A stretch of DNA of 64,000 bases from Pseudomonas oryzihabitans. Lineage in GTDB: Bacteria > Pseudomonadota > Gammaproteobacteria > Pseudomonadales > Pseudomonadaceae. The notes beneath the pieces are model-generated. The model made no database searches. It was not told the origin of the DNA and saw only the letters and a program-made list of their open reading frames with translations. The first letter of the stretch is position 1. Every line of letters starts with the position of its first letter. Made by a program: the position numbers and the translations under genes. Positions 58,501 through 64,000 of the stretch are shown piece after piece. The stretch lies in NCBI RefSeq assembly GCF_006384975.1, contig NZ_CP021645.1:3624001-3688000 (forward strand). Direction: 5' to 3'.

Positions 58501-60306
58501 ATGAAAACCATCCAGATCACCGACACCATCCTGCGTGACGCCCACCAATCGCTGCTGGCGACCCGCATGCGCACCGAAGACATGCTGCCGATCTGCGCCA
58601 AGCTCGACCAGGTCGGCTACTGGTCGCTGGAAGTCTGGGGCGGCGCCACCTTCGACGCCTGCGTGCGCTTCCTCAAGGAGGATCCCTGGGAGCGCCTGCG
58701 CCAGCTGCGCAAGGCTTTGCCCAATACCCGCCTGCAGATGCTCCTGCGTGGCCAGAACCTCCTGGGCTACCGGCACTACAGCGACGACGTGGTCGAGGCC
58801 TTCGTCGAACGCGCCGCGGCCAATGGCACCGACGTCTTCCGCATCTTCGATGCCATGAACGATGTGCGGAACCTGGAAACCGCCATCCGCGCGGTCAAGG
58901 CCACCGGCAAGCACGCCCAGGGCACCCTCTGCTACACCACCAGCCCGGTGCACACGGTGGCGGCCTTCGTCGACCAGGCGCGGCGCATGGCCGACCTGGG
59001 CGTGGATTCCATCGCCATCAAGGACATGGCCGGCCTGCTCACGCCCTATGCCACCGGCGATCTGGTGAAGGCGCTCAAGGAGGCCCTGTCGCTGGATGTG
59101 GTGGTGCATTCCCACGACACCGCCGGCGTGGCTTCCATGTGCCAGCTCAAGGCGGTGGAGAACGGCGCCGACCGCATCGAGACGGCGATCTCCAGCATGG
59201 CTTGGGGCACCAGCCATCCGGGTACCGAATCCATGGTCGCCGCCTTGCGTGACACCCCCTACGACACCGGGCTGGATCTGGAGCTGCTGCAGGAGATCGG
59301 CCTGTACTTCCATGCGGTGCGCAAGAAGTACCACCAGTTCGAGAGCGAATTCACTGGCGTCGACACCCGGGTGCAGGTCAACCAGGTGCCGGGCGGCATG
59401 ATCTCCAACCTGGCCAACCAGTTGCGCGAGCAGGGTGCCCTCAATCGCATGAACGAGGTGCTCGAGGAAATCCCGCGGGTGCGCAAGGATCTGGGCTACC
59501 CACCCCTGGTGACCCCGACCTCACAGATCGTCGGCACCCAGGCGTTCTTCAACGTGCTGGCCGGCGAGCGCTACAAGACCATCACCAACGAGGTGAAGCT
59601 CTATCTGCAAGGCCGCTACGGCAAGGCCCCGGGCGAGATCTGCGAGCAGCTGCGCAAGCAGGCCATCGGTCAGGAAGAGGTCATCGACGTCCGTCCCGCC
59701 GATCTGCTCAGCCCCGAACTGGCGCGCCTGCGGGCCGACATCGGTGACCTGGCCCAGAGCGAAGAAGACGTCCTGACCTTCGCCATGTTCCCCGACATCG
59801 GGCGCAAGTTTCTCGAAGAGCGCGCTGCCGGCACCCTGGTGCCGGAAGCCTTGCTGCCCATCCCCAGTGCGGATGGTGTGGCGGCCGTGGGCGGCCAGGG
59901 CGTGCCGACCGCCTTCAGCGTCGACGTGCATGGCGAGACCTACCAGGTGGACATCACCGGCATTGGCCTGAAGACCGAGGGCAAGCGGCACTTCTATCTG
60001 TCTATCGACGGGGTGCCGGAAGAGGTGGTGTTCAAGGCCAGTGGCGACTTCGTCGCCGAGGGTGGCCAGCGGCGGCGCCAGGCGGAGCGTCCGGGCGATG
60101 TCAGCACCACCATGCCGGGCAACATCGTCGAGGTACTGGTGAAGGAAGGCGATCAGGTCAAGGCCGGGCAGGGCGTGCTGGTCACCGAAGCCATGAAGAT
60201 GGAAACCGAGATCCAGGCGCCCATCGCCGGTACCGTTACCGCGGTACGGGTGGCCAAGGGCGACCGGGTGAATCCGGGTGAAGTTTTGATTGAAATCGAA
60301 GGCTGA
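58501..60306 (+). CDS. pycB: Pyruvate carboxylase subunit B (carboxyltransferase/biotin carrier)
   Basis: The 601-residue subunit transfers the carboxyl group to pyruvate. Its N-terminal HMGL-like barrel has TDTILRDAHQSLLATRMR (about 7-24) and SHDTAGVAS with metal ligands; the conserved PYC/OADA domain covers about 295-480. A C-terminal biotinyl domain has VTEAMKMETEI with the biotinylated Lys near residue 566. Often annotated oxaloacetate decarboxylase alpha (oadA), but no membrane beta/gamma subunits are present. A strong terminator follows. Confidence 0.95.
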   Translation: MKTIQITDTILRDAHQSLLATRMRTEDMLPICAKLDQVGYWSLEVWGGATFDACVRFLKEDPWERLRQLRKALPNTRLQMLLRGQNLLGYRHYSDDVVEAFVERAAANGTDVFRIFDAMNDVRNLETAIRAVKATGKHAQGTLCYTTSPVHTVAAFVDQARRMADLGVDSIAIKDMAGLLTPYATGDLVKALKEALSLDVVVHSHDTAGVASMCQLKAVENGADRIETAISSMAWGTSHPGTESMVAALRDTPYDTGLDLELLQEIGLYFHAVRKKYHQFESEFTGVDTRVQVNQVPGGMISNLANQLREQGALNRMNEVLEEIPRVRKDLGYPPLVTPTSQIVGTQAFFNVLAGERYKTITNEVKLYLQGRYGKAPGEICEQLRKQAIGQEEVIDVRPADLLSPELARLRADIGDLAQSEEDVLTFAMFPDIGRKFLEERAAGTLVPEALLPIPSADGVAAVGGQGVPTAFSVDVHGETYQVDITGIGLKTEGKRHFYLSIDGVPEEVVFKASGDFVAEGGQRRRQAERPGDVSTTMPGNIVEVLVKEGDQVKAGQGVLVTEAMKMETEIQAPIAGTVTAVRVAKGDRVNPGEVLIEIEG

Positions 60307-60325
60307 GATCACTTCGATTTCCCTT

Positions 60326-60349
60326 GGGGGCCAAGAGGCCCCCTTTTTT
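60326..60349 (+). terminator. Rho-independent terminator of pycAB
   Basis: A 7-bp GC stem GGGGGCC/GGCCCCC with an AAGA loop is followed by six T. It lies 20 bp after the pycB stop and separates pycAB from the downstream metal-responsive unit. Confidence 0.93.
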
Positions 60350-60397
60350 ATGGGGACTCTCTATCCGTTCGATTGATAAAAAGCACTAACACCTTCC

Positions 60398-60432
60398 GAT
60401 AGGGTCTGCTATTAAATATAGCCATGGCTATA
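60398..60432 (+). promoter_or_regulatory. Extended -10 promoter with MntR-like operator (small ORF)
   Basis: An extended -10 TGCTATTAA (60407-60415) is followed directly by the perfect 16-bp palindrome TATAGCCATGGCTATA (60417-60432). The ATAGC-N4-GCTAT layout equals the MntR box of E. coli mntH as I recall it (ATAGCAAAGGCTAT). The block is 29/35 identical to that before sitA. Manganese-loaded MntR should repress here. Confidence 0.8.
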
Positions 60433-60455
60433 ACGATCCCTTCGGAGGATTCGCG

Positions 60456-60587
60456 ATGCTGAAGCAAATGAAGAGACGCGCTCTGCGTGGCCTGCTGGAC
60501 CTCCTGCTCGACCAGCCTGCCCAGCAGCGCCCGGCACAGCCCAGCCAGGCGCGCCACCCCCAAGGCGCAGGGGTCCAGCCGCGCTAA
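60456..60587 (+). CDS. Putative MntS-like manganese-regulated small protein
   Basis: A 43-codon frame with GGAGG 7 bp before ATG and an MntR-like operator 23 bp upstream. The N-terminal 19 residues (MLKQMKRRALRGLLDLLLD) form a basic amphipathic or weakly hydrophobic helix; the remaining 24 are rich in Gln, Pro, Ala and Arg. E. coli MntS is a 42-residue, MntR-repressed protein with a basic/hydrophobic N-terminal half and a polar Gln/Pro/Asp tail, a comparable plan without clear sequence identity. It might raise intracellular Mn availability. It also resembles the SitA signal-peptide start, so a remnant of a 5' duplication is the main alternative. Confidence 0.6.
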   Translation: MLKQMKRRALRGLLDLLLDQPAQQRPAQPSQARHPQGAGVQPR

Positions 60588-60740
60588 CGCCGTTCGCGCC
60601 CTTGCCCGAGGCGAGGGCGCACCAAGCCCCACCGATCCCATCCCAGGCCACTCGGCAATCGGCAGAGTGACCTTGTCTTGTCTCCCAACCCACAGCGAAG
60701 CGGGCCTTCATCCAAGGTTACAAAGTCTCCGCGCACTCTC

Positions 60741-60775
60741 GATAGGTTGTGCTATCTAATTTAGCCAAGGCTATA
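60741..60775 (+). promoter_or_regulatory. Extended -10 promoter with MntR-like operator (sitA)
   Basis: TGCTATCTA (60750-60758) is an extended -10, followed by TTTAGCCAAGGCTATA (60760-60775), a near-palindrome with the TAGC-N4-GCTAT core of MntR boxes. A further inverted repeat GATAG-N6-CTATC (60741-60756 region) overlaps the -10. The spacing to the next ATG (22 bp) is almost the same as in the small-ORF copy. Confidence 0.8.
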
Positions 60776-60797
60776 CATTTGGCGAGAGGCGGAGCGG

Positions 60798-61688
60798 ATG
60801 CTGAAAGAGACGAGACGCTGGGCGCTGGCGGGTCTGCTGGGATTGCTGTTGGGCAATGCCCAGGCCGCCGAGCCATTCAAGGTGGTGACCACCTTCACGG
60901 TGATCGCCGACATGGCGCGCAATGTGGCCGGGGACGCCGCCCAGGTGGAGTCCATCACCAAGCCCGGTGCCGAGATCCACAACTACCAGCCTACCCCGGG
61001 CGATCTGCTCAAGGCGCGCGATGCCCAGCTGGTGCTGTGGAATGGCCTGAATCTGGAGCTATGGTTCGAGCGGTTCTTCAGTCGTATGAAGGAGGTGCCC
61101 AGCGCTGTGGTTTCCCAGGGCATCACGCCCATTGCCATCGCCGAGGGGCCCTACGCCGGCAAGCCCAATCCGCATGCCTGGATGTCGCCCACGGCGGCCT
61201 TGGTCTATGTCGACAACATCCGCGATGCCCTGGCCGAACACGATCCGGCCAATGCCGACACCTACAGACGCAACGCCGAGGCCTACAAGGCGCGCATCAC
61301 CGCGACCCTCGAACCCCTGCGCCAGCAATTACAGGCGATTCCCAAGCCGCGTCGCTGGCTGGTGTCGAGCGAAGGCGCCTTCAGCTACCTGGCCCGCGAT
61401 CTCGGGCTCAGGGAGCTCTATCTGTGGCCGATCAACGCCGATGGGCAGGGCACGCCGCAACAGGTACGGCGGGTGATCGAAACGGTACGCGCCGAGCGCA
61501 TTCCGGCGGTGTTCAGCGAGAGCACGGTCTCCGCCGCGCCGGCCGAGCAGGTGGCGCGGGAAAGCGGCGCGCGTTACGGCGGGGTGCTCTATGTGGATTC
61601 CCTCAGCGCTGCCGACGGTCCGGTCCCCACCTATCTGGAGCTGCTGCGGGTAACCACCGCGACCCTGGTGCAGGGGTTGGCGCCATGA
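60798..61688 (+). CDS. sitA: Mn/Fe ABC transporter substrate-binding protein (SitA-like)
   Basis: A 296-residue periplasmic cluster-9 metal-binding protein. A signal peptide (about 1-23, ending NAQA-A) is followed by metal ligands His61 (EIHNYQP), His126 (PHAWMSP), Glu241 (FSESTVS) and Asp267 (YVDSLS). The His/His/Glu/Asp set and the absence of a His-rich loop favour Mn2+ or Fe2+ over zinc. ATG 60798 has GGCGGAG upstream. The stop overlaps the sitB ATG by 4 bp, and an MntR-like operator lies 22 bp before the start. Confidence 0.92.
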
Positions 61689-62455
61689 TCGCCCTCGACG
61701 GGGTCAGCGTGACCTATCGCAACGGCCACAGCGCCTTGCGCGATGCCAGCCTGGTGGTGCCTGGTGGCTCCATCACCGCGCTGGTCGGAGTCAATGGCAG
61801 CGGCAAGTCGACGCTGTTCAAGGCGATCATGGGCTTCGTGCCCCTCCGCAGCGGCCAGGTGCGGGTCGATGACTTGCCCGTCGCCCAGGCGCTCAAGCGC
61901 AATCGGATCGCCTATGTACCCCAGAGCGAGGACGTGGATTGGGACTTTCCGGTACGGGTGGAGGACGTGGTGCTCATGGGGCGTTACGGCCGGATGAATT
62001 TCCTGCGCCTGGCGCGGGCTGCCGATCACCAGGCGGTGGACGCCGCCCTGGCCCGGGTCGGGCTGACCGAGCTGCGCAAGCGGCAGATCGGTGAACTCTC
62101 CGGTGGCCAGAAGAAGCGCGTCTTCCTGGCGCGCGCCCTGGCCCAGGACAGCCGGGTGATCCTCCTGGACGAACCCTTCACCGGGGTGGACGCCACCTCC
62201 GAGCGCGCCATCATCGAGTTGCTCCAGGCGCTGCGTGCCGAGGGTCGCGCCATGCTGGTCTCGACCCATGACCTGGCCAGCATCGAGCGCTTCTGTGACC
62301 GTACCGTGCTGCTCAATCGCACCGTGCTGGCCCAGGGGCCGACGACCGAGGTGTTCACCCGGGAAAATCTGGAGCGCACCTTCGGCGGTGCCCTGCGCCT
62401 GTTCGACGGCGGTCGCCCGGCGTCGCAGCCGCCCCGGTGGCGGGAGCGGGCCTGA
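61685..62455 (+). CDS. sitB: Mn/Fe ABC transporter ATP-binding protein (SitB-like)
   Basis: A 256-residue ATPase energising metal uptake. Walker [10 protein letters not shown] (about 35-43), Q-loop [14 protein letters not shown], signature [15 protein letters not shown], Walker B VILLDEPF and the switch His in STHDLAS are all intact. It overlaps sitA in ATGA and shares its last base with the sitC ATG, so the operon is tightly coupled. The Q-loop sequence DWDFP is typical of the Mn/Zn/Fe cluster. Confidence 0.95.
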
Positions 62456-63309
62456 TGGAGGTGCTGCTGGAGCCGCTGGCCTACGGCTACATGAGGAATG
62501 CCCTGGGTGCCGCCGCCCTGGTGGGCGGACTCTGCGCCTTTCTCTCCGCCTACCTGATGCTCAAGGGCTGGTCGCTGATCGGCGATGCCCTGTCCCATGC
62601 CGTGGTGCCGGGTGTGGCCGGCGCCTATCTACTGGGGCTGCCGCTGGCCCTGGGCGCCTTTGTCGCCGGTGGCGCGGCGGCGGGGGCCATGCTCGGGCTA
62701 CGGCAATACACCCGGCTCAAGGAGGACGTCATCATCGGCCTGATCTTCAGCGCCTTCTTCGGCGGCGGCCTGTTCCTGGTGTCCCTGGCGCCAGTGGCGG
62801 TGGACATCCAGACCATCGTCTTCGGCAACATCCTGACCATCACCCCGGAGGCCAGTCGCCAGTTGCTGATCATCGCCACCCTTTCCCTGCTGGTACTGCT
62901 GCTCAAGTGGCGCGATCTGCTGCTGGTGTTCTTCGACGAGGGCCAGGCGCGTGCCTGTGGACTCAATCCCACGTTGTACCGGCTGCTGTTCTTCACCTTG
63001 CTGGCGCTGAGCACGGTGGCGGCGATGCAGACGGTAGGTGCCTTCCTGGTCATCGCCCTGGTGGTGACGCCGGGTGCCACCGCCTATCTACTCAGCGACC
63101 GCTTCGCGCGGGTGGTGCTGATCAGCGTGGCCATCGGCGTCGGCAGTGGCCTGCTGGGCACCTACCTCAGCTACTTCCTCGATGGCGCCACCGGTGGCTG
63201 CGTGGTGGTGCTGCAGACGCTGATCTTCCTGTTGGCCTTCGTGCTGGCGCCACGCCATGGCCTGCTGGCCAACCGGCGGCGGGCGCGGCAGACGGCGGAG
63301 GAGGGCTGA
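62455..63309 (+). CDS. sitC: Mn/Fe ABC transporter permease (SitC-like)
   Basis: A 284-residue ABC-3 family permease with about eight or nine membrane segments. The conserved SYLMLKGWSLIGDALSHAVVPG-type block (about 27-50) and VGAFLVIALVVTPGATAYLL (about 190) fit the metal-transport class. ATG 62455 overlaps the sitB stop by 1 bp; an in-frame GTG at 62437 lies inside sitB and is less likely. Pairs with the downstream paralogue sitD. Confidence 0.94.
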   Translation: MEVLLEPLAYGYMRNALGAAALVGGLCAFLSAYLMLKGWSLIGDALSHAVVPGVAGAYLLGLPLALGAFVAGGAAAGAMLGLRQYTRLKEDVIIGLIFSAFFGGGLFLVSLAPVAVDIQTIVFGNILTITPEASRQLLIIATLSLLVLLLKWRDLLLVFFDEGQARACGLNPTLYRLLFFTLLALSTVAAMQTVGAFLVIALVVTPGATAYLLSDRFARVVLISVAIGVGSGLLGTYLSYFLDGATGGCVVVLQTLIFLLAFVLAPRHGLLANRRRARQTAEEG

Positions 63310-64000
63310 TGGACTGGCTGCGACTGGTCCTGGAAGTCGACTTCATGCGCCAGGCGCTGCTGATGGCCGTGCTGGTGGCCGTGCCCACGGCGCTGCTGTC
63401 GTGCTTTCTGGTACTCAAGGGCTGGGCGCTGTTGGGCGATGCCATCGCCCATGCGGTGTTTCCCGGCCTGGTGCTGGCCTCGGCGCTGGGTGCGCCACTG
63501 GTGGCCGGCGCCTTCGTCGCCGGGCTGGGCTGTGCCCTGGCCACCGGTTACTTGAAGCGTCATAGCCGGGTGAAGCAAGACACCCTGATGGGGGTGGTCT
63601 TCTCCGGCATGTTCGGCCTGGGGCTGGTACTGCACGCCAAGTTGGCCACCGACTTGCACCTGGACCATATCCTGCTCGGCGATCTGCTGGGGGTGACCCC
63701 GGCGGCCTTCTGGCAGATGGCGGTGATCGCGGCCGTGGTGACGGTGGTGCTGGCCTGCAGTTGGCGCGATCTGCTGGTGCTGGCCTTCGATCCGGCCCAG
63801 GCGCGGGCGCTGGGTCTCCGGGTGGGTCTGCTGCACTACGGCTTGCTCGGGCTCATTGCCCTGACCGTGGTCGGTGCCTTGCAGACGGTTGGCATGGTGC
63901 CTGTGGTGGCGTTGTTGATCGCGCCCGGCGCCACGGCTTTCCTGCTCACCCGCTCCTTTGGTGGGATGCTGCTGGTGGCCACGACCTTGGCGGTGGCGGC
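63309..64000 (+). CDS. sitD: Mn/Fe ABC transporter permease (SitD-like), 3' end outside window
   Basis: 230 codons of a second ABC-3 permease are visible, starting MDWLRLVLEVDFMRQALLMAV; the frame is open at the window end, so about 50 residues are missing. It repeats the LKGWALLGDAIAHAVFPGLV and GMVPVVALLIAPGATAFLL blocks of sitC. The ATG overlaps the sitC stop by 1 bp. Two different permeases are typical of SitABCD/YfeABCD systems rather than ZnuABC. Confidence 0.93.
   Translation, partial: MDWLRLVLEVDFMRQALLMAVLVAVPTALLSCFLVLKGWALLGDAIAHAVFPGLVLASALGAPLVAGAFVAGLGCALATGYLKRHSRVKQDTLMGVVFSGMFGLGLVLHAKLATDLHLDHILLGDLLGVTPAAFWQMAVIAAVVTVVLACSWRDLLVLAFDPAQARALGLRVGLLHYGLLGLIALTVVGALQTVGMVPVVALLIAPGATAFLLTRSFGGMLLVATTLAVA

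Follow-up and report, generated by a model that had tools for sequence, protein, structure and literature searches.

A small gene directly upstream of the manganese/iron-type transporter genes sitABCD in Pseudomonas oryzihabitans starts within a tandem second copy of the sitA upstream region, which comprises an MntR-type box, a ribosome-binding site and the start of the SitA signal peptide and is found in the P. oryzihabitans group. That the gene is coding, derives from the sitA leader and stands behind an MntR-type box can, taken jointly, be asserted with high confidence. We favour, with some reserve, the fuller reading that its product is a small protein of manganese scarcity, which arose from a SitA signal peptide as a parallel to enteric MntS and probably restrains manganese export via MntP. 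The gene lies near the 3' end of the window, by which we mean the whole 64,000-nucleotide stretch that was analysed.

Locus organization

An earlier sequence-only reading had described a 43-codon frame with a GGAGG, a perfect palindrome of MntR-box layout and a downstream SitABCD-type transporter, and had suggested a likeness to MntS. Its palindrome, GGAGG, frame and all distances are exact at base level, with the ATG 23 bp 3' of the palindrome and the GGAGG 7 bp 5' of the ATG, and the transporter is confirmed by a PF01297 protein, an ABC ATPase and two ABC-3 permeases from 60798 onwards (Table 1). Its overall reading of a conserved, MntS-sized and selected small protein behind an MntR-type box stands in part; the origin as a copy of the sitA upstream region and signal peptide had been missed.

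Table 1. Features of the small-gene and sitABCD locus (positions in the window)
Feature	Position	Strand	Remarks
Carboxylase gene, PYC_OADA domain	ends 60306		next upstream of the small gene
Terminator-like hairpin with T-run	60326..60350	+	3' of the carboxylase gene; 2 such sites in 60300-60860 vs 0.6 expected from shuffles
Duplicated block: upstream region, box, RBS, first codons	60397..60500	+	aligns with 60740-60840 before/in sitA
Palindrome TATAGCCATGGCTATA	60417..60432	+	MntR-type box of the small gene; perfect 8+8 (16 bp)
Ribosome-binding site GGAGG	60444..60448	+	same in all 10 genomes
Small protein gene	60456..60587	+	43 codons; ATG 60456, TAA 60585-60587
GC-rich hairpin	60596..60620	+	just 3' of the small-gene stop; no T-run; similar in several relatives, not all
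sitA upstream region	60740..60797	+	parental copy
sitA box TTTAGCCAAGGCTATA	60760..60775	+	imperfect
sitA	60798..61688	+	periplasmic metal-binding protein, PF01297; parental signal peptide (judged by eye)
sitB	61685..62455	+	ABC ATPase subunit, PF00005
sitC	62455..63309	+	ABC-3 permease, PF00950 (domain scan started at GTG 62437)
sitD	63309..64000	+	ABC-3 permease, PF00950; continues beyond the window end

The hairpin and T-run that follow the carboxylase gene suggest that the small gene forms its own transcription unit. A scan with the sigma-70 consensus returned no promoter-like site at either the small gene or sitA (0 found, 0.2 expected), and promoters for both are presumed from the duplication and from conservation. 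SitA has its best NCBIfam matches among Mn/Fe and Zn families, all below the curated cut-offs, and family models do not decide which metal is imported. The hairpin just 3' of the small-gene stop reaches z values of -3.1, -2.7 and -2.6 in three genomes of the genus (G000, G001 and G006), with stem sequences that differ between species and without a T-run.

Origin from the sitA leader

The small protein, MLKQMKRRALRGLLDLLL, aligns with the start of the SitA signal peptide, and the relationship is visible in the DNA itself. The two blocks listed in Table 1 give a local score of 41; none of 1000 dinucleotide shuffles scores above 21, and none of 526 chunks, taken on both strands from the window's first 59 kb, scores above 30. 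The duplication recurs in each of the nine genomes of the genus with this sitA, at scores of 34-51 against null maxima of 14-18. At the protein level, the window small protein and its own SitA leader have a pairwise score of 53, equalled by none of 1000 shuffles, the consensus small protein scores 38 against the SitA leader (1/1000 shuffles as high), and a small-protein profile matches four of six SitA leaders at E<=0.01 (calculated per 1000 sequences; best 1.4e-4, worst 0.11). Elsewhere, a search for leader duplication among the best 80 of 565 confirmed sitA loci gave a single positive, P. oryzihabitans YY7, with a z of 24.6 and the next locus at 4.7.

The SitA signal peptide of the same genomes is thus a direct relative of the small protein in both DNA and protein sequence, and is taken as its parent. 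Because SitA occurs widely and the small gene has a narrow range, we infer that the sitA leader gave rise to the small gene, and place the duplication in the ancestor of the P. oryzihabitans group. The two products have since diverged in kind: the SitA signal peptide has a hydrophobic core and an AxA cleavage site, whereas the small protein is free-standing and, by hydropathy and by reading of the sequence, has neither of these marks of a Sec signal peptide. At the place of QAAEP in SitA it carries QPAERRP or a similar stretch, and the loss of the core is seen in Gly to Asp exchanges at residues 15 and 19 and, in most members, a Leu to Lys exchange at residue 16.

Coding evidence and protein properties

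Among the ten frames found in the genus, codons 1-20 have accumulated 26 synonymous and 18 non-synonymous changes against an expected synonymous fraction of 0.331 (P=3.5e-4), as counted by parsimony with an assumed transition weight of 4; the synonymous-rich frame conservation that had been named as a check on the sequence-only reading is therefore present. Over all codons the counts are 63 synonymous and 80 non-synonymous (P=9.5e-4), and from codon 21 to the end 37 and 62 (P=0.089), the tail being weakly constrained. The helix has an omega of about 0.34, or 0.26 in an eight-genome core, and the ten frames hold no stop; by expectation, the inferred changes would have included about two stop-gains. 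The helix is under purifying selection and the tail is drifting. Frameshifts or stops in close relatives, which had been put forward as refuting evidence, are absent, all ten frames being open, and the copy in the window, which is among the most diverged, has a rewritten tail for which a frameshift origin was considered. Upstream of the frame, the 16-bp box varies at one central A/T position alone and the GGAGG is invariant in the ten genomes; the spacer between the small gene and sitA is poorly conserved.

The protein thus consists of a helix derived from the SitA signal peptide followed by a variable polar tail. In the AlphaFold model (mean pLDDT 66.5) residues 2-18 are helical and the tail is predicted with low confidence. 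This helix is both basic and amphipathic, with a moment of 0.30-0.34 compared with 0.16 in two SitA leaders and 0.36 in MntS. Its maximal 11-residue Kyte-Doolittle (KD) hydropathy is 0.45 in the consensus and 1.15 in the window copy, against 2.06-2.29 in the two SitA leaders and 2.12 in MntS, such that of the basic and hydrophobic N-terminal helix described from the sequence alone the basic character holds and the hydrophobic core has been lost. A C-terminal His is present in 15 of 18 aligned members, often as HxxH, and absent from the window copy and from one other divergent copy (G008); this HxxH end is a possible metal contact.

Distribution

The small gene is present in ten of 13 same-genus genomes, its own included, and sitA adjoins it in nine of those ten. 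The frame is intact at all ten loci, with 43-44 codons, close to the 42 residues of MntS as had been pointed out before. Both this sitA and the small gene are missing from the remaining three genomes (G002, G004 and G005), which cluster on an mntP plus mntR tree with support 1.0. The same three carry a second close Nramp (>438 bits), which the other ten genomes do not have. Across 398 genomes of the family, with up to 18 candidates per genome scored, a profile search gave strong matches (E<=3e-18) only in the ten carriers, the next-best match being at 5.6e-4. Weak matches outside the genus (E 5.6e-4 to 0.05) fell mostly inside longer frames and were taken as chance. A consensus search of 5.8 billion proteins returned 16 clusters, all of 43 residues and from Pseudomonas wherever an organism is stated, in which every named protein is a 'hypothetical protein'; the diverged window and G008 copies are not among the matches listed.

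In one genome (G009) sitABCD has been deleted in place, with about 50 bp of the sitA leader remaining, and the small gene, its box and its ribosome-binding site are intact. The gene sits there at the same place as in G006 and G012, between the same AraC-type gene upstream and CBS gene downstream; the AraC-type assignment comes from a domain scan in G009, and the flanks in G006 and G012 are alike by blastn. G009 retains a distant SitA paralogue elsewhere, at 36% identity. In the genus as a whole, the upstream neighbour of the small gene is the carboxylase gene in six of the ten genomes, and the AraC-type gene in these three; G001 has a differing flank.

Predicted control by MntR

The full 16-bp form of the box, TATAGCCWWGGCTATA, occurs once in each of the ten genomes, always 5' of the small gene, and in none of the 138 others among 148 family genomes searched, with a reversed-pattern control at zero throughout. 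The shorter pattern TAGCCWWGGCTATA is found exactly at three places in the window's own genome, namely before mntP, the small gene and sitA. With one mismatch it recurs in the divergent mntR/mntH promoter and at 982 kb, where it lies inside a coding frame and was attributed to chance. Two mismatches gave 65 matches for the reversed control and 56 for the pattern itself, and only sites with zero or one mismatch were therefore used. The palindrome had been read as having an MntR-box layout, and it does match the sites before mntP and mntR/mntH.

MntP (PF02659), an MntR-type regulator (PF02742) and an MntH-type Nramp are encoded in all 13 genomes, and boxes precede mntP and mntR in each of them (with one core mismatch in the mntP box of G004); three genomes of the genus thus have MntP and the MntR-type regulator without the small gene. 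In the window's own genome, mntR (152 aa) is divergent to the Nramp gene (449 aa), and the MntR-type box of mntP (genome position 2679330) stands 5' of a yybP-ykoY manganese riboswitch (RF00080, 47.3 bits). The mntP gene of E. coli likewise has an MntR-type box and a yybP-ykoY riboswitch. From the position of its box, the small gene is very probably under putative MntR control, and is a likely member of the Pseudomonas MntR regulon.

Relation to enteric MntS

Enteric MntS derives from the signal peptide of SitA and binds MntP, and signal peptides are able to replace it. By the title of their 2024 paper, Wright and colleagues are said to have traced MntS to a signal peptide. In E. coli MG1655, MntS (b4705) has 42 residues; its gene is contained in the annotated RNA RybA, next to mntR. 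MntS is repressed by MntR and acts genetically through MntP, according to PMC4361602.

Common descent of the Pseudomonas protein with MntS is not supported, in keeping with the earlier remark that sequence identity to MntS is not evident. The NCBIfam model NF033226 small_MntS (Pfam label PF26599) matched none of four Pseudomonas small proteins at E<=10, whereas it gives E. coli MntS 96 bits (cut-off 36). A profile built from 17 MntS proteins recovered, at E<=0.01, all 104 held-out MntS and none of 18 small proteins, the best of which reached an E of 6.8; the reciprocal small-protein profile matched none of the 104 MntS proteins, and hhalign gave a probability of 0.1%. Pairwise, the window copy scores 32 against MntS (2/1000 shuffles as high) but the consensus only 23 (88/1000), and the score was therefore taken as chance or shared composition. 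A crude test of MntS itself against 12 enteric SitA leaders, with up to three start codons each, gave scores of 12-27, with 0 to 199 of 200 shuffles as high.

The two proteins nevertheless have in common their size, an MntR-type box, a basic N-terminal part, a polar Pro/Gln tail and an MntP gene in the genome, the last being a feature also of the three Pseudomonas genomes without the small gene. They also share a signal-peptide origin, computed here for the small gene, taken for MntS from the paper title mentioned above, and assigned to SitA in the enteric case as general background. MntS keeps its hydrophobic core and the Pseudomonas protein has lost it, which suggests that the mode of action may differ. 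Further, E. coli mntS stands beside mntR, whereas the Pseudomonas gene, in another taxon, stands beside its parent sitA with the upstream region visibly co-duplicated. The same kind of box, the same genome partners and the same kind of origin point to an independent case, and this is apparently a second, independent birth of an MntS-like small protein. Among the open-licence PMC papers listed, titles and abstract beginnings reveal no apparent MntS-like small protein in Pseudomonas; PMC6048274 has 'Mnts' in a sentence on manganese availability, apparently with another meaning.

Proposed role and alternatives

We propose that the duplication of the sitA upstream region and signal-peptide start took place in the ancestor of the P. 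oryzihabitans group; the upstream copy has lost its hydrophobic core and AxA site and is a free-standing frame of 43-44 residues. Manganese-loaded MntR would repress the gene, as its box suggests, with the protein being made at scarce manganese along with MntH and SitABCD. By analogy with E. coli MntS, the basic amphipathic helix may lie at the cytosolic face of the membrane, where the protein could restrain export through MntP and so keep imported manganese in the cell. MntP is named as the target only tentatively, on the strength of that analogy.

A different target, which we consider unlikely though it deserves attention, would leave the origin and the scarcity response unchanged: the protein might act on MntH, on the SitC/SitD permease or on the Sec machinery, or might itself carry manganese. 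The lost hydrophobic core alters the likely binding mode, the box is of the same kind as those of the importers, and the prevalent C-terminal His would suit such a target or a carrier; the absence of the HxxH end from the window copy and G008 argues against manganese carriage as the core task, and the E. coli parallel (PMC4361602) favours MntP. Retention of the small gene in G009 without sitABCD makes SitBCD a less likely target and disfavours a sit-specific role, although this is thin evidence from one genome. The leader peptide offered as an option in the sequence-only reading, in which translation of the frame would control transcription or translation of sitA, agrees with the position of the frame directly 5' of sitA on the same strand. 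It was rejected as very improbable, since a separate box and upstream block precede sitA itself, 60588-60797 contains no terminator-like site, and G009 keeps the gene without the operon; the poor conservation of the spacer also tells against it.

Equally improbable is a regulatory RNA in which the peptide is incidental. The location of E. coli mntS within rybA and the hairpin 3' of the stop in several genomes would fit such a transcript, but the frame is kept under codon-level purifying selection, the hairpin is weak in four of the ten genomes (z above -0.5 in G007, G008, G010 and G012), and no Rfam family exceeds its gathering score over 3 kb around the sitA box, the small gene included. That the gene is a functionless, decaying by-product of the duplication, supplying a second MntR box, is scarcely credible: the divergent tail, and the window copy as one of the most diverged, are what decay would produce, and it was discarded in view of the intact frames, the purifying selection on the helix, the invariant GGAGG and the retention after loss of sit in G009.

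If a manganese-scarcity protein born from the SitA signal peptide is indeed what the locus encodes, the adjacent parent gene and the duplicated upstream region show how the capture took place, and the single case of MntS becomes a repeatable route to new genes, in which a regulatory region and a signal peptide are duplicated together. The origins of small proteins are an open question, to which this second case would bring a parent gene still adjacent and an upstream region copied along, and also a natural comparison of whether the helix or the hydrophobic core is needed for action on a manganese transporter. It is conceivable, though doubtful enough to be offered as a suggestion, that SitA signal peptides have a latent activity in manganese homeostasis, such as MntP binding, and that this activity was captured on two or more occasions in the form of a separate small protein under MntR repression, once as enteric MntS and, independently, here. 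Other short E. coli proteins, SgrT, MgtS and AcrZ, also act on transporters, with other signals and targets (PMC10710835).
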